DNA of 64,000 bases from Bacteroides fragilis. Its GTDB lineage: Bacteria > Bacteroidota > Bacteroidia > Bacteroidales > DTGW01. Below the pieces are notes generated by a model. The model worked only from the letters and a program-made list of their open reading frames with translations. It was not told the DNA's origin and did no database searches. Positions 20,359 through 63,686 of the stretch are shown in pieces; the stretch's first letter is position 1, and every line of letters starts with the position of its first letter. The translations under genes and the position numbers were made by a program. The DNA is taken from positions 62,001 through 126,000 of the forward strand of contig CAMDBI010000002.1 of assembly GCA_945889005.1 (NCBI GenBank), in the 5' to 3' direction.

Positions 20359-21606
20359 ATGGAAAAGAATACTTTAATGAAAATAATACTTGAGAGTGCC
20401 GATTTTGTAGACTCTCAGGCAATGTTTGCTCGGAATTACGTATTAGACAGCAATGCCAATTACGTATTTTGCGGTATAAGAAGGTGTGGCAAGAGCTTTT
20501 TGCAGTTTCAACAAATAATGGCACTTTCGAAAAGTAAAAAAACAGGACACTATGTTTATCTAAACTTTGAGGACGAACGTTTTATAGAATTCAACTCAAA
20601 GCATTTTGACCTTATTTTGGAATGTGCTCAGGAGCTATATAGCGAAAAGCCGGCCTTGTTTTTCGATGAAATACAGAATATTGAGCATTGGGAAAAGTTT
20701 GCCCGTCGACTAGCCGATACTGGCTACAAAGTATGTATTACAGGCAGTAACGCCAAAATGCTTAGCAAGGAAATAGCCACCACTTTGGGAGGTCGTTACC
20801 TAATAAAAGAAGTACATCCGCTTACATTCGATGAGTTTTTATTGTTCCATTCGGTTACTATTCTAAAAAACTTTGAAATTTCGAAACAGCGATTTGAAAT
20901 AAAAAAACATTTTGAATCTTTTTTTCAATATGGCGGTTTTCCCGAAATGTTTAAATATCAGAACCGTAAGGAATATTTAAGCAGTATTTTTATGAAAGTA
21001 TTTTATGGCGATTTGGTGGCTCGCAATCATATACAAAACGAACATGTGCTAAAATTACTCATAAAGAAACTAGCCGAAAGTGTTAACAACGAAACATCGC
21101 TCAATCGCATACGAAACCTAATACAAAGTACAGGACATAAAATTGGCAGCAACACCATTAACGAGTATTTGGGTTATTTGTTCGACTCATATCTAATTTT
21201 CCCACTAAACAACTATGTTTCGAAATATACCGAGCGCGAAACCAAAAAGAAATACTACTTTAACGATCAAGGTATTTTAAATCTTTTTATTACCGACCAA
21301 GATACCAAATTGCTCGAGAATATTGTATTTCTTCATCTTTACAAAATACATGGTGAGCAGTTGTTCTATTACAAACGTAATGTAGAAGTAGACTTTTATA
21401 TACCGGACAAAAACTTCTTAATACAGGTTTGCTACTCGTTGTCCGATATTGAGACTCGTAAACGCGAAATAGCAGCGATAAAAGTTGCTTCGAAGGAGCT
21501 CAATGTCACAAATGCTCAAATAATTACTTACGACGAAGTGGACTCCATCATCGATGATCAATTAAAAATTGAGGTACTGCCTGTTTGGCAATGGTTGTTG
21601 AAATAG
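20359..21606 (+). CDS. AAA ATPase with DUF4143 domain
   Basis: The 415-residue product has an N-terminal AAA_14-type ATPase with a Walker A variant GIRRCGKSFL (about residue 40), Walker B ALFFDEIQNIEHW and sensor CITGSNAKML. A C-terminal DUF4143 domain follows at about 200-400, ending in a PD-(D/E)XK-like pattern (VEVDFYIPD then FLIQVCYS). These proteins are common in Bacteroidota and archaea; their role is unknown, and some resemble nuclease-linked ATPases. It is a single gene with its own promoter, facing the caspase operon tail to tail. Confidence 0.9.
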   Translation: MEKNTLMKIILESADFVDSQAMFARNYVLDSNANYVFCGIRRCGKSFLQFQQIMALSKSKKTGHYVYLNFEDERFIEFNSKHFDLILECAQELYSEKPALFFDEIQNIEHWEKFARRLADTGYKVCITGSNAKMLSKEIATTLGGRYLIKEVHPLTFDEFLLFHSVTILKNFEISKQRFEIKKHFESFFQYGGFPEMFKYQNRKEYLSSIFMKVFYGDLVARNHIQNEHVLKLLIKKLAESVNNETSLNRIRNLIQSTGHKIGSNTINEYLGYLFDSYLIFPLNNYVSKYTERETKKKYYFNDQGILNLFITDQDTKLLENIVFLHLYKIHGEQLFYYKRNVEVDFYIPDKNFLIQVCYSLSDIETRKREIAAIKVASKELNVTNAQIITYDEVDSIIDDQLKIEVLPVWQWLLK

Positions 21607-21619
21607 TTTTGTGCTATAA

Positions 21620-22573
21620 TTACTCATTTATTTTCCAGTTTTTCCATGTATTTTCAATATATGGACTCACTATGGTTTGGGGGTTTTGTTCTTTCGAATT
21701 GATCATTACCGAATTAAGTGTTGTTTGTTTTCTTACATAATTGCTCAATTCTTCGAGAGACATATCGCCTTGGCTAGTTTTTAGGGCTTTTAGCAAATAA
21801 TAGGTAAACATACCATGCCCCTTTTCTTCGTACGGTAGGGCTGTTTGCGATTCGCTGGTTGCAGTTAGCACAAGCAAGTTGCCTTGTTTTACTTCATTAT
21901 TTTTGGGCTTTATTTTTGCAGCACGAGCCGACACCAAACCTTGCTTACGACCACCACCGCTAAAACAAGCATCTAAAAACACGACCACTTTTTTCGAAGG
22001 GTATTCGGTAAGTTTGTCGTACAACTCCTGAGTTTTAATGGCATATTTAATATCGGCACCACTAACATCGACAGGCATAATGTAGGCTTCTTTGGTTGCT
22101 TCTTCTGGCAAACCATGACCGGCATAATAGACATACACTTCGGCCTGACCATCGAGGTTTTTTATAATGTTATTAAATTTGTCGATGGCACTGCGCATCT
22201 CGACCAACTTGGCATTGATAAGCAACACGGCATTTTCGTCGGGTACACCAAGTATTTTTGTGGCATATTCTTTAAACACACTTGCATCGTTTTGGGCAAA
22301 CTCTACATCGGCTTCTTTGTCTATGCCTTTTTGAAACGAACTATAATCTTGATTGCCAATTATTAGGGCGTAGCGGTCGACGTTGGGCTTTGCCACCCGA
22401 GGAATATCCATATCGACATCCGATACCGTAGCCGTTGCATAAGCAAGCGATGCTTGTCCCGATGTTGCTTTCTTGGGCGGCAAATTCACTTTTACATATT
22501 CGCTTTCGCCTGTTTTTTGTGCTATAGTCGAAAGACTAATAAGCACAAATACCAACAAATAAATTACTTTCAT
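21620..22573 (-). CDS. Exported caspase-like protease (peptidase C14 family)
   Basis: The 317-residue product has a signal peptide (residues 1-19, VIYLLVFVLISLSTIA), a short linker, and a caspase p20 domain from about residue 67. The catalytic dyad is intact: His153 in YVYYAGHG and Cys203 in VFLDACFSGGG. The start of the fold, RYALIIGNQDYSS, and the C-terminal GMFTYYLLKAL are also typical. It should act outside the cytoplasm, unlike the cytosolic caspases of abortive-infection systems. It is the last gene of a four-gene operon, 18 bases after the kelch-like lipoprotein. Substrate and activation mechanism are unknown. Confidence 0.92.
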   Translation of the reverse strand: MKVIYLLVFVLISLSTIAQKTGESEYVKVNLPPKKATSGQASLAYATATVSDVDMDIPRVAKPNVDRYALIIGNQDYSSFQKGIDKEADVEFAQNDASVFKEYATKILGVPDENAVLLINAKLVEMRSAIDKFNNIIKNLDGQAEVYVYYAGHGLPEEATKEAYIMPVDVSGADIKYAIKTQELYDKLTEYPSKKVVVFLDACFSGGGRKQGLVSARAAKIKPKNNEVKQGNLLVLTATSESQTALPYEEKGHGMFTYYLLKALKTSQGDMSLEELSNYVRKQTTLNSVMINSKEQNPQTIVSPYIENTWKNWKINE

Positions 22574-22591
22574 GTTCTTATGTTTTAGGGG

Positions 22592-24568
22592 TTATCTAAA
22601 ATTGGTTTTATACACGTCATAATAAAAGTCCTCTGGAGTTGGACTTACAGTATTCAGATAATAAAAATCTGACCCGATTTCGAATTTTGTGGGATACCTC
22701 ATTAAAGTGTAAAAAGATATAATTGTACTTCCAATTTTTTTATACAAATTGCTCCCGTCGAAGGTATATTCGATTGTTCCTGTAGTATTTCCCAATATAA
22801 GTGCCAGCCCGTTATTATCGGTAATAATTTCTCCTGGCGAACCACTATATGTAAGATATTTAAGAACTGTACTCCATTTATTATCATCGGGATTATATTT
22901 AAGCATACTATAAAAAGTTTTTGAACCGTAACCTCCATAAATATATCCGGTGTCTTTCAATGCAAAAGCAGAATTAACATTGCTCCTGGGTTCCGGTAAA
23001 TCGGCTATACGCTCCCAATTGTTCGTTGATTTTACATATTTGTATACTATTGATGAAGGGGAACTTGTACTATTCTCTTCCTGGATATAAGGAATATCTT
23101 TAACAACAAACCAAAAACCATAATATGTAGAGGGAAAGTCGGCTACAGATGTCCAATTAGAACCATCGAACAAATAATGTTTACTATTATCTGAATTGTG
23201 CATAGCCAAAACATAGTTTGAGGTAGAAATAAAAGTATATTTTAAATCATTCCAATAATTACCTGCATAGAAACCAACGGGAAAAGATGGATTTAATATT
23301 TTCTCCCATGAATCTGATAAAGGAGTATATTTATATAAGCTAAAAGTATTGTCGCTATTTTTATAAATCATATATCCAAATCCTTTACAGCTAAAACCTG
23401 CCAACATATAACTTCCAGGGCAACTCAGTTTGCTCATTTTAGTTTCGTAATCCCTGCCATCTAACTTTAAATCGGCAAGTGTCCAACTATATGATTTATT
23501 ATTACCAGAAATTCTTTTGTCATAAACATCTTTTGTTAAAAGAAAGCCAGAAAGTTCAATTTTATTTGTTTTTGACAACTCGCTGTACTGATAATACTTT
23601 GTTTCATAATTATTTAATTGAAATTTAACTGAATCTGTTTTAGGCAATTGACTTGGATTATAACTAATTTCGAGAGATGGCCTGAACCCATTGTTGGTTA
23701 ACTGCTTAAGTTTGAATATGGGTTCAATGGCAATTGTGTCAAATATTTTTAATGAAAAATTCAAATTGTTATTTTGACTATTATTTGAAATCAAAAATGT
23801 ATCAACAGGCTCATTGATAACAACATTCCCTTGTTTATTTTTAGGTATTATAATCTGATTATTGTTTCCTTGTATAAAGTGTAAATAAAACTGTTCATTT
23901 TGCATCCAATTAAGAGATTTCGTATTGTAATATAACTTAACTGAAGAGTATGATTCATGCTTAATAGAATCAATATATGTTGCAAAATAACTTTCAGGGA
24001 ATTGAATAGAGAACAATTCTTGAGCAAAACTAGTCCCATATTCATAAGATTTTGATTTATACGAAATATATAAATCATATTGTTTTTTTGAAATTTCTAA
24101 AAGAGGCATTTCTATAATTGGTTTTTGCTTCGTAAATTCCATTTTCCAATCCCCTCTATATGTATATGTTATAAAACCATCAATACTTGTTGTACCAAAC
24201 CCACTTTCATGAATTCCCATACTTGATCCAAATAAAACTTTATCAACTAAATCACTATAGTATACATCACTATAATTAATATCATAATAAGAACCATCAT
24301 ATTGTATTTGTTCATTAAAGGGAGTCAAAAACAACTTTGCATCTTCCCCAACAAGTACCTTCGTTGCATCGAAACGCAAAATAATAGTATCGTTTCTTTT
24401 AAACCACTTGATGCTGACTTTATTTTTTTCTAAATCAATATAGCTACTCGATTCACTATCGAACGGATTATCCCTTTCGGGTTTGAGCTCTTTGTCAATT
24501 GTTTCGCATGAGTAAAGTATACTTATCAAACTCAGGAGAAATGCTATTTTAGATTTCATTTTTTTCAT
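22592..24568 (-). CDS. Kelch-like beta-propeller lipoprotein
   Basis: The 658-residue product begins with a lipoprotein signal ending in the lipobox ILYSC (Cys about residue 21), so it is membrane-anchored. The following NPFDSES is a motif common just after the lipid anchor in such proteins. The N-terminal 380 residues are beta-rich and unassigned. The C-terminal 270 residues contain kelch-like repeats, for example FALKDTGYIYGGYGS then LKYNPDDNKWS, with recurrent YKYxxxxNxW patterns. A propeller usually binds other proteins or glycans. It sits between the DUF5683-like gene (12 bases) and the caspase gene (18 bases), suggesting a substrate or partner platform. Confidence 0.85.
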   Translation of the reverse strand: MKKMKSKIAFLLSLISILYSCETIDKELKPERDNPFDSESSSYIDLEKNKVSIKWFKRNDTIILRFDATKVLVGEDAKLFLTPFNEQIQYDGSYYDINYSDVYYSDLVDKVLFGSSMGIHESGFGTTSIDGFITYTYRGDWKMEFTKQKPIIEMPLLEISKKQYDLYISYKSKSYEYGTSFAQELFSIQFPESYFATYIDSIKHESYSSVKLYYNTKSLNWMQNEQFYLHFIQGNNNQIIIPKNKQGNVVINEPVDTFLISNNSQNNNLNFSLKIFDTIAIEPIFKLKQLTNNGFRPSLEISYNPSQLPKTDSVKFQLNNYETKYYQYSELSKTNKIELSGFLLTKDVYDKRISGNNKSYSWTLADLKLDGRDYETKMSKLSCPGSYMLAGFSCKGFGYMIYKNSDNTFSLYKYTPLSDSWEKILNPSFPVGFYAGNYWNDLKYTFISTSNYVLAMHNSDNSKHYLFDGSNWTSVADFPSTYYGFWFVVKDIPYIQEENSTSSPSSIVYKYVKSTNNWERIADLPEPRSNVNSAFALKDTGYIYGGYGSKTFYSMLKYNPDDNKWSTVLKYLTYSGSPGEIITDNNGLALILGNTTGTIEYTFDGSNLYKKIGSTIISFYTLMRYPTKFEIGSDFYYLNTVSPTPEDFYYDVYKTNFR

Positions 24569-24580
24569 TTTTGTAATGGT

Positions 24581-25342
24581 TTAAAAATTATAATTCCATA
24601 CCAATTGACCACCTTTGAACTGGTTTGGAGCCATGTAAAAAACAGATTGCTTCTGGGGGTGTTTTTCGAAGCGTTTTTTGTAATAGGGGTGCTTCCGCTT
24701 GTTCATCGCCCCTTTGATAGAGACAAAGAGAATGTCGCCCACATAAATACCGGCTGCGGCAAACATCAAGTACTTTGTGTTTTGGTAATACTGCAGGTCT
24801 TGCTTGTATGCAGCGTCTAAAGCAGACTGGTCGTAACTTTCAATACTGTTATATTCCCTCCCAATCATTTCGGAATTGGCAAATGCACCCCATGCAGTTC
24901 CCAAAAAGCTAATATGAGTTAACCAAGGTTGCCAACGGTTTTTCACTACAAAGTAGTCGCCCAAGCCCGGCAGCAATGCCGATAGAAATGCAGCCCTGGG
25001 TCTGCCAAGGTACTTTATTCTTTTACCCTTTTCAACTTCAATCTCAGCTTTCAGATTGCCCGAAAGACCGTCGATATCCTGATAGAGATCCCACACTATT
25101 TTCAAATCTTTACCGGCAACTATATCGCTACCCACATCGCCACTCAGGGCAAATGGTGTAATTTTTGTGGTACTTTGGAAAGATATTTTTACATTATAAA
25201 GCCTTTTGGTGCTGTATTTGTCTATGTCGTAATGTACTACAACTTTATCGCCTTCTATACCGAGCTTCACATTTGTCACTTTTTGGGCACCGGCATACCC
25301 AAAAGCAAAGAGAAGTATAAATTTTAATAGTGTTCTCATCAA
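24581..25342 (-). CDS. DUF5683-like membrane protein with signal peptide
   Basis: The 253-residue product has a signal peptide (LLKFILLFAFGYAGA), a beta-rich periplasmic domain (about 20-110), and then RPRAAFLSALLPGLGDYFV, the conserved entry of the DUF5683-type domain. Hydrophobic segments follow at about 145-160 and 190-215. Its start codon overlaps the stop of the preceding gene as ATGA, so the two are translationally coupled. Role unknown; the architecture suggests an inner-membrane or envelope partner for the operon's exported proteins. Confidence 0.8.
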   Translation of the reverse strand: MMRTLLKFILLFAFGYAGAQKVTNVKLGIEGDKVVVHYDIDKYSTKRLYNVKISFQSTTKITPFALSGDVGSDIVAGKDLKIVWDLYQDIDGLSGNLKAEIEVEKGKRIKYLGRPRAAFLSALLPGLGDYFVVKNRWQPWLTHISFLGTAWGAFANSEMIGREYNSIESYDQSALDAAYKQDLQYYQNTKYLMFAAAGIYVGDILFVSIKGAMNKRKHPYYKKRFEKHPQKQSVFYMAPNQFKGGQLVWNYNF

Positions 25343-26298
25343 TTATTGCGTTTTCTTATTGTGATATCAAAATTTTTTAGTGCTATCTGTGTTTTTTTGT
25401 AACTGCGGTTTTGCATCAGCCATTTCTGAAATTCTTCAGAAGGTAACGATTTGGGAGCTGCATAGTTTGCAATCTGCTCATCTTTGCTCAAAATCGACTG
25501 ATTGGTATTATCGAGTCGTGGTTTTGCAAGTGGTTTTTCTGAGAAAATTATAAAACAGCGGTTCAAATCTTCTTGTTTCTCTGCTCCTAATTGATAGGTA
25601 TCTATAGTAAAATTGAGCTTTTCAATATTATGATTTTTAGTAGAGTTCGAAAAGAAAATATATTCAGCATCGGCTTTTACCCAAAAGCCGCCTTCCTGTT
25701 CAGTTGGCATATCGCGATAGGGCAAAAGGCACTGTGCATTTGTCCCATCGTCGAGGTATATCCACAAATAACCACTTACGGGACTGTTGAAATAAAAATA
25801 AAAATCGTCTCCGTCATTAAATTCGGTTGTTTTGCATTTTTTTGAATCGCAAACTAATGGATAGGCATCGAATTGAATTGGAGGCGCTACAAGTTCCTTT
25901 GCTTTTATCTCAATTGTACAAATCATAAAACGCACTTTTAGCGTGTCTTTGCCCGAAATTATTGGTTTAATTGTTGTTTGATATTTTTCTGATACAACTT
26001 CGAGCACTTCGCCATTTACAGCATGGTTTGAAATGAAATTGTAAACACTTTTAGACTCTAAAAGCTTGTTGTTTTGTGAATTGGATATGTAAGTTGAACT
26101 ACCATCGACAACTATAGTTCCAAAAGCAGCTTCAAGAGCAGCAATTGATGCTTGTTCTTTGGCAAGTTTTTTAGTTCGATCTTCCGATAAACTTATGGGA
26201 AATTCGACTTCTCCAGCTCCTGAGCTTTTTACAATCTGCTGAGCTTTTAAAGTATTGCAAAAAAACAAGAATAGTAAAATATATTTAATAACTTCCAT
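25339..26298 (-). CDS. Exported DUF4384-domain protein, first gene of the caspase operon
   Basis: The 319-residue product has a signal peptide (residues 1-19) and an N-terminal alpha/beta domain with a helix KLAKEQASIAALEAAFG, of the LPP20/FlgO-like type. A DUF4384-like domain follows, visible as FYFYFNSPVSGYLWIYLDD and LLPYRDMP. DUF4384 domains occur with caspase domains in several bacteria, sometimes fused; here the parts are on separate genes. A -7 box (26328-26335) lies upstream. A protein of the same layout is encoded at 62850-63686. Confidence 0.85.
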   Translation of the reverse strand: MEVIKYILLFLFFCNTLKAQQIVKSSGAGEVEFPISLSEDRTKKLAKEQASIAALEAAFGTIVVDGSSTYISNSQNNKLLESKSVYNFISNHAVNGEVLEVVSEKYQTTIKPIISGKDTLKVRFMICTIEIKAKELVAPPIQFDAYPLVCDSKKCKTTEFNDGDDFYFYFNSPVSGYLWIYLDDGTNAQCLLPYRDMPTEQEGGFWVKADAEYIFFSNSTKNHNIEKLNFTIDTYQLGAEKQEDLNRCFIIFSEKPLAKPRLDNTNQSILSKDEQIANYAAPKSLPSEEFQKWLMQNRSYKKTQIALKNFDITIRKRNN

Positions 26299-26335: not shown

Positions 26336-26396
26336 ATTATTTAATTGAATTTAAAAAACTTGCTTAATATTTTAGAATAAGAAAAAACACAAAAAA

Positions 26397-26432
26397 GCCG
26401 CTAATCAGCATTTTTCTCTGCTTCTTAGCGGC
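26397..26432 (-). terminator. Rho-independent terminator of the saccharopine-dehydrogenase-like gene
   Basis: GCCGCTAA at 26397-26404 pairs perfectly with TTAGCGGC at 26425-26432. Read on the minus strand, the stem is followed by TTTTTTG. It lies 13 bases after the stop at 26446. Confidence 0.9.
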
Positions 26433-26445
26433 CTTACTTTATTTT

Positions 26446-62653: not shown

Positions 62654-62849
62654 AAATTAATTACTAAAGACTAATTACTAATGAAAATAGAAAAAGAGAC
62701 CAATAAAAAATTGGATGAAAAAACTATTGAAGCTAAAGAAAAAAATGAGCCATCGACATTTTGTTTGAGAGTGCAAATATATGATAAAATTCTTTTTGTA
62801 AAAATTGCATTGAATCATTATCTTGCGTTGAATTTTTTAATTGAAAATA

Positions 62850-63686
62850 ATGAAAAGAATACTTCTAATAGCCTTATTAGCAATAGTTTTGAACAACAAT
62901 GCTCAACAAATTATTCATATAAAACAAGCCAAAGGTGAATATATTATGGCTGCCAAATCGGATATTAGCGAAAAAGCAGCATTCGAGAAAGCTCATAACG
63001 AAGCAAAGTTAGAAGCTATGCGCAAAGCGGGTGTTGCCGAAAATATAAGTTCGTCAGACATACTTACTACAAACCAAAGTGGCTCAAACTTTAAACAAGA
63101 CCTGAGCTCTATTCTTTCTGTCGAGATAAATGGAGCAGTGGTTAATGACAGCATCGTTGACGAAAAAAAAATAGTCGACGAATATGGAACTAAATATTAT
63201 GTAACGATTAATGCCGATGTAATAAAATATGAGACTAAAGCAGACCCTTCGTTTATTTTTAAAGTTGAAGGCGTAAAAGAATATTATGAAAACGACAATT
63301 TGATGCGATTTTCGTTTTTACCTTTTTCCGATGGATATTTAAAAATATTCAACATCAACGACAACGAAAATTTTATGGTTTATCCTTATTTCGACAAAAA
63401 AGGCTCGATGCTCAACGACACGCTAAATAGGCTTTTCAGAGCCAATGTAAAGCTACAATTCCCTCTTAACAAGCTTATGGGAAATCCAACAACGCGCGAA
63501 GATGGTTACATGCTCTATACAGAACTTCCTCGCGAAAATAATTACTTGATTTTTGTTTTTACAAAAGATAACATACCATATATCGGAAATTACACCTATA
63601 AAGATGTGATTTCGTGGATATATCGTATTAGCCCAGATAGGCGCAGGGTGCAATTTTTGGACTTTGTAATTGTAAATAAAAAGTAA
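62850..63686 (+). CDS. Second exported DUF4384-like protein
   Basis: From ATG 62850 the product is 278 residues (an in-frame TTG at 62841 adds three). It has a signal peptide (ILLIALLAIVLNNNAQ), an N-terminal helix-rich part EKAAFEKAHNEAKLEAMRKA, and a later beta-rich part with MRFSFLPFSDGYLKIFNIND, which lines up with the FYFYFNSPVSGYLWIYLDD motif of the protein at 25339-26298. The layout is the same, but identity is low. It is a single plus-strand gene with no caspase near it. Confidence 0.8.
   Translation: MKRILLIALLAIVLNNNAQQIIHIKQAKGEYIMAAKSDISEKAAFEKAHNEAKLEAMRKAGVAENISSSDILTTNQSGSNFKQDLSSILSVEINGAVVNDSIVDEKKIVDEYGTKYYVTINADVIKYETKADPSFIFKVEGVKEYYENDNLMRFSFLPFSDGYLKIFNINDNENFMVYPYFDKKGSMLNDTLNRLFRANVKLQFPLNKLMGNPTTREDGYMLYTELPRENNYLIFVFTKDNIPYIGNYTYKDVISWIYRISPDRRRVQFLDFVIVNKK

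Follow-up and report, generated by a model that had tools for sequence, protein, structure and literature searches.

Organisation of the operon

The window analysed here is a stretch of 64,000 nucleotides of Bacteroides fragilis DNA, in which four adjacent genes had been predicted from the sequence alone to encode an exported caspase with lipoprotein and membrane partners. A check of the open reading frames in the window bore out all four genes and their order, g4-g3-g2-g1, on the minus strand. The features of the locus, in window positions, are the following:

21620..22573, minus strand: g1, 317 aa, C14 caspase-like protease predicted to be exported (PF00656, E = 1.2e-22; catalytic residues H153 and C203; D96 and D201 as acidic S1 candidates)
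22592..24568, minus strand: g2, lipoprotein of 658 aa with lipobox LYSC; its C-terminal half has kelch repeats at about residues 390-640
24581..25342, minus strand: g3, signal peptide, Ig-like beta-sandwich and membrane-helix region; weakly DUF5683-like, below the cut-off; likely ATG start at 25339
25339..26298, minus strand: g4, predicted exported protein of 319 aa with signal peptide, mixed beta-alpha N-terminal domain and C-terminal DUF4384-like Ig-type beta-sandwich
26388..26436, minus strand: intrinsic terminator of the upstream gene, GGCCGCUAA...UUAGCGGC stem followed by a U-run (-24.2 kcal/mol, z = -6.3)

The intergenic gaps of -4, 12 and 18 bases given in the original prediction hold if g3 begins at its TTG codon, but not if the ATG at 25339 is used. 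This in-frame ATG beside the TTG is the likelier start of g3 and results in TGATG coupling with g4, with an overlap of 1 base. The operon is set apart from the upstream gene by the strong terminator hairpin. Transcription from a -7 box had also been proposed; however, the motif TAnnTTTG was found to occur at chance frequency (123 copies in the window, both strands counted), and 5' of g4 a -33 element at the correct spacing is lacking. Promoter-like sites of the sigma-70 type were about as frequent as in shuffled sequence and were rejected as promoter evidence.

Based on hydropathy and a lipobox check, which underlie all export calls in this work in place of SignalP, export or lipid signals are predicted on all four products as originally claimed, with four of four N-termini being signal-like and g2 having a lipobox. 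On its far side, the caspase gene is convergent with a gene for an AAA_14/DUF4143 ATPase (window 20359-21606, plus strand), with 13 bases between the two ORFs.

The caspase-like protease g1

In a profile search against PF00656, g1 scored 81.2 bits, well above the curated cut-off of 21.4. The caspase dyad was confirmed to be intact, with H153 lying in the motif YYAGHG and C203 in DACFSG. An alignment of 20 sequences revealed the key residues of g1 to be invariant or nearly so, D96 and D201 being invariant. Both of these residues align with the acidic residues by which the Arg pocket (S1) of MALT1 is formed. Among solved structures, MALT1 was also the sole family that the caspase profile reached, at E values of about 1e-5 to 1e-4; a direct PDB sequence search with g1 gave no match. 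With regard to a p10 domain, which orthocaspases lack, approximately 100 residues lie C-terminal to C203, within the coverage of the C14 profile. Non-caspase C14 enzymes cleave after Arg or Lys (PMC5756287), and g1 is predicted from its sequence to be an orthocaspase-type protease with Arg/Lys specificity.

The view that export would be exceptional for a caspase was not upheld. A signal-like N-terminus was present in 35 of 35 caspase homologues checked from the neighbourhoods described below, and a survey from 2012 (PMC3501461) already listed 46 prokaryotic metacaspases that have either a signal peptide or one TM helix at the N-terminus, and also covered varied operons. Because all 35 homologues are signal-like, export is the rule in this caspase group and not peculiar to the window operon.

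The partner proteins g2, g3 and g4

The assignment of g2 as a kelch-like lipoprotein was substantiated by a match to Kelch_4 (E = 5.3e-7; 29.9 bits versus a cut-off of 21.6 bits) together with the lipobox LYSC. Its composition is aberrant, with a GC content of 30.2% and a GC3 of 24.9%, compared with 35-41% GC in the other three genes. No full-length homologue of g2 was found in 393 genomes of the order, and the exact four-gene set is therefore, as searched, specific to this genome. Being lineage-specific and compositionally odd, g2 may thus have an incidental part. A kinship of g2 with the fn3 lipoproteins of related loci was considered and rejected, no relation being detectable beyond the signal peptide.

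The DUF5683 label (PF18935) proposed for g3 could not be retained, as the score of 13.7 bits is below the cut-off of 26.7. The AlphaFold model of g3 (pLDDT 80.9) comprises a beta-sandwich (residues 21-108) and long helices (residues 138-159 and 172-217). Homologues of g3 are present in 64 of the 393 genomes, with 34 full-length matches. On another contig of the genome from which the window derives (C11, L183:17636-19426, minus strand), a 596-aa protein is encoded in which a g3 domain is N-terminal and a caspase C-terminal; the g3 part matches across the entire g3 profile with E = 1.4e-22. The gene that follows this fusion encodes a lipoprotein of 839 aa for which BACON and fn3-like matches were obtained.

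Concerning g4, the DUF4384 label applies to the family, of which 17 of 35 homologues match PF14326 (best E = 2.8e-9), but the protein encoded in the window stays below the cut-off (12.7 versus 27 bits). In the AlphaFold model (pLDDT 88.4), the N-terminal domain is mixed and the C-terminal one is an Ig-like sandwich. With Foldseek the top match was weak, namely 9hmf_A, a chain from the flagellar periplasmic scaffold of C. jejuni (E = 6e-3, 116 columns, whole-model TM 0.15). With VIA-align, only common Ig-like sandwiches were recovered for the C-terminal half (Z <= 8), and a PDB sequence search with the g4 profile gave no match. A signal-like N-terminus was seen in 35 of 36 g4-type proteins checked. 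Outside the order such proteins are rare: a sample of 395 genomes from the phylum gave 2 matches in addition to the own genome.

The window contains one more g4-type (DUF4384-like) gene, a divergent one coding for 281 aa, at 62841-63686 (plus strand), with neither a caspase gene nor a member of the families F2 and F3 (see below) alongside. It is 58-59% identical to the g4-type gene of the related genome G004 that adjoins the caspase orthologue there. The caspase seems to have changed its partner.

Linkage of the component genes across the order

In the sample of 393 genomes of the order, a g4-type gene was found in 39 and a caspase of this kind (E <= 1e-20) in at least 82. With the own genome left out, at least 22 of 42 g4-type matches (19 genomes) lay within 5 kb of a caspase, compared with 0.17 expected by random placement; for full-length g3-type genes it was at least 9 of 34, compared with 0.16 expected. 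Among the caspase matches listed, g4-type and caspase genes also co-occurred at the level of genomes (Fisher p = 7e-17).

Gene neighbourhoods were examined for 40 loci from the 393-genome set and 23 from named contigs, some genomes being in both; the contig scan for g4-type genes used a seven-member subset of the g4 alignment. A caspase lies at most 6.5 kb from the g4-type gene in 40 of 61 loci and on the same strand in 34 of 61, some of these loci being duplicates of one genome, and many g4-type genes among the 61 loci are without a nearby caspase. Distances among g4-type proteins correlate with those among the neighbouring caspases (Mantel r = 0.36, a value reached in 9 of 5000 shuffles), and part of this correlation could result from shared species history alone.

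As to whether the four genes are together merely by chance, the linkage of g4-type and g3-type genes to caspases is not a chance effect, but the exact set was encountered only here. In other Bacteroidota, three of the four genes have relatives that are recurrently clustered, and the recurring core is formed by the DUF4384-type and caspase genes. The gene set is tied together by this conserved neighbourhood and by the g3-caspase fusion in the same genome. In G004, the nearest relative with a caspase orthologue, only a g4-type gene and a caspase lipoprotein gene are present, and g3 is absent.

All four component types were found together in four other loci from other genera (L090, L099, L164 and L180). 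The g4-type, caspase, g3-type and fn3-type lipoprotein genes are on one strand in L090 and L099, which belong to two other families, and in L180 from a Labilibaculum sp. MAG; in L164, a g3-caspase-lipoprotein-lipoprotein run and the g4-type gene are oriented divergently. Directly 5' of the caspase, WD40 propeller proteins of about 690-740 aa are encoded in five loci (L078, L080, L082, L083 and L089). A propeller or repeat-domain partner, drawn from different families, recurs beside the caspases.

Two further families of predicted exported proteins, F2 (about 220 aa) and F3 (about 490 or 870 aa), often flank g4-type genes and are absent from the window operon. A signal-like N-terminus is present in 15 of 15 F3 proteins; because C408, H435 and D462 (numbered after the first sequence) are invariant and Transglut_core gives weak matches, F3 is probably transglutaminase-like. 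F2 was considered as a relative of g4 and discarded, since profile comparison detects no kinship. The own genome has a single F3 gene (L193:6667-9288, minus strand, contig C29; 873 aa), which adjoins a gene for an 1131-aa protein with no caspase nearby, and for F2 it yielded a doubtful match only.

A sigma-70-type (ECF-type) gene, followed by a membrane anti-sigma-like gene, is part of the cluster in L090, L097, L099, L179 and L182. The pair lies directly 5' of F3 and a g4-type gene in L099:2732-7151, L090:5583-9428, L179:6111-9879 and L182:6107-9888; beside the window operon there is none. A separate observation concerns L107, where an M23 peptidase gene (L107:4130-5101, plus strand) is situated shortly 5' of the caspase lipoprotein gene.

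Proposed function and alternative explanations

Bacterial caspase relatives have mostly been studied in the cytosol and in the context of cell death. An exported caspase in a conserved gene set, accompanied by lipoprotein, propeller and scaffold proteins and at some loci by an ECF sigma/anti-sigma pair, would provide these proteases with a defined role in the envelope and with partners that can be tested. What the sequences show, as described above, is the gene set with its export signals, the dyad and acidic pocket of the caspase, the recurrent linkage, a g3 domain fused to a caspase, and all four component types recurring in other genera; from these we infer a complex, sensing by the lipoprotein, gating, a substrate and a trigger, such that the operon would most likely constitute a sensor-gated envelope protease module with Arg/Lys specificity (probability about 0.5). 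In such a module, the kelch-propeller lipoprotein g2 would act as the variable ligand- or damage-sensing part; a propeller by itself is no proof of sensing. Counting against the module are the lineage-specific occurrence and odd composition of g2, the lack of g3 in G004 and the many g4-type genes with no caspase close by. Envelope anchoring could be provided by g3, with its Ig-like domain and membrane helices, and by g4 as a DUF4384-type scaffold. Released or activated by these partners, g1 would cut envelope proteins after Arg or Lys, and at those related loci that include an ECF sigma/anti-sigma pair, its output would perhaps be transcriptional.

A more specific version, in which the exported caspase, upon lipoprotein or propeller sensing, cuts the periplasmic part of the membrane anti-sigma factor and thereby feeds an envelope-stress sigma pathway, appears improbable to us; there, the DUF4384-type and g3-type proteins would serve as the scaffold, and the window operon would represent a derived branch in which linked sigma genes are lacking. 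Without any signalling, g1 might instead be a surface or periplasmic maturation protease that constitutively processes exported lipoproteins, including its own partner. That the caspase is repeatedly adjoined by repeat-domain lipoproteins, that the cluster often includes F3 as another probable cysteine enzyme and that the M23 peptidase in L107 is just 5' of the caspase would fit with this, but a cleavage signature was not found in the lipoproteins and the sigma/anti-sigma linkage at some loci suggests regulation, which makes pure maturation unlikely.

Another explanation restricts the function to g4 and the caspase, with g3 and the kelch lipoprotein being passengers between them. It draws on G004, where just a g4-type gene and a caspase are found, on the unique and AT-rich g2 and on the association of g4 with the caspase being the commonest; it is rendered doubtful by the independent enrichment of g3-type genes near caspases, by the fusion of g3 to a caspase in the own genome and by four other loci in which g3-type genes stand alongside g4-type, caspase and lipoprotein genes. 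Caspase-like effectors are, moreover, known from bacterial defence, and the PADLOC caspase model matches g1 (E = 2e-12); both would fit a suicide or anti-phage function in which the caspase is the toxic effector. However, this model is a generic one for caspases, and PADLOC yields no match for the three partners; g1 is predicted to be exported and lacks a sensor NTPase as found with cytosolic defence caspases, and a mobile defence context was not seen. A defence role is, consequently, very improbable, and the sensor-gated envelope module is the reading we prefer. The proteolytic or signalling role in the envelope suggested in the original prediction is thereby retained as the most probable one.

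Relation to known systems

The statement in the original prediction that no system with this exact set has been described agrees with the literature searched, of which few subscription papers were within reach. In the same literature, no exported caspase system was found for Bacteroidetes, DUF4384 was mentioned in passing only and DUF5683 figured in no bacterial study. The four-gene set looks like a real, previously undescribed cell-envelope protease system. Exported or membrane-linked prokaryotic caspases are already known, as is DUF4384 with a caspase-type domain; new is this gene set.

Prokaryotic C14 proteases (orthocaspases/metacaspases; Asplund-Samuelsson 2012; Klemencic and Funk 2017) have in common with g1 the p20 fold, the His-Cys dyad and the acidic S1 pocket; some of them also have a signal or TM segment and are encoded beside varied operon partners. 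Here, in contrast, a defined exported set with a DUF4384-type protein, a g3-type protein and a repeat-domain lipoprotein is concentrated in one order of Bacteroidota. A report from 2019 (PMC6426788) described DUF4384 and a pseudo-orthocaspase, and also trypsin, in one protein of Alphaproteobacteria. DUF4384 and a caspase-type domain are common to both cases, whereas here they are encoded by separate genes, the g4-type protein has its own N-terminal domain and the caspase dyad is intact. As for flagellar periplasmic scaffolds (LPP20/FlgP-like), the weak similarity of g4 to 9hmf_A is resemblance, not membership, and a flagellar context is absent here. The MALT1 paracaspase has the aligned acidic S1 residues, but it is a eukaryotic cytosolic signalling scaffold and has no membrane partners of this type.

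A natural pseudo-enzyme was noted among the related loci: at L098:5740-7581 (plus strand), a caspase homologue adjoining a g4-type gene has lost the dyad, with GLG in place of GHG and DVPFSG in place of DACFSG.
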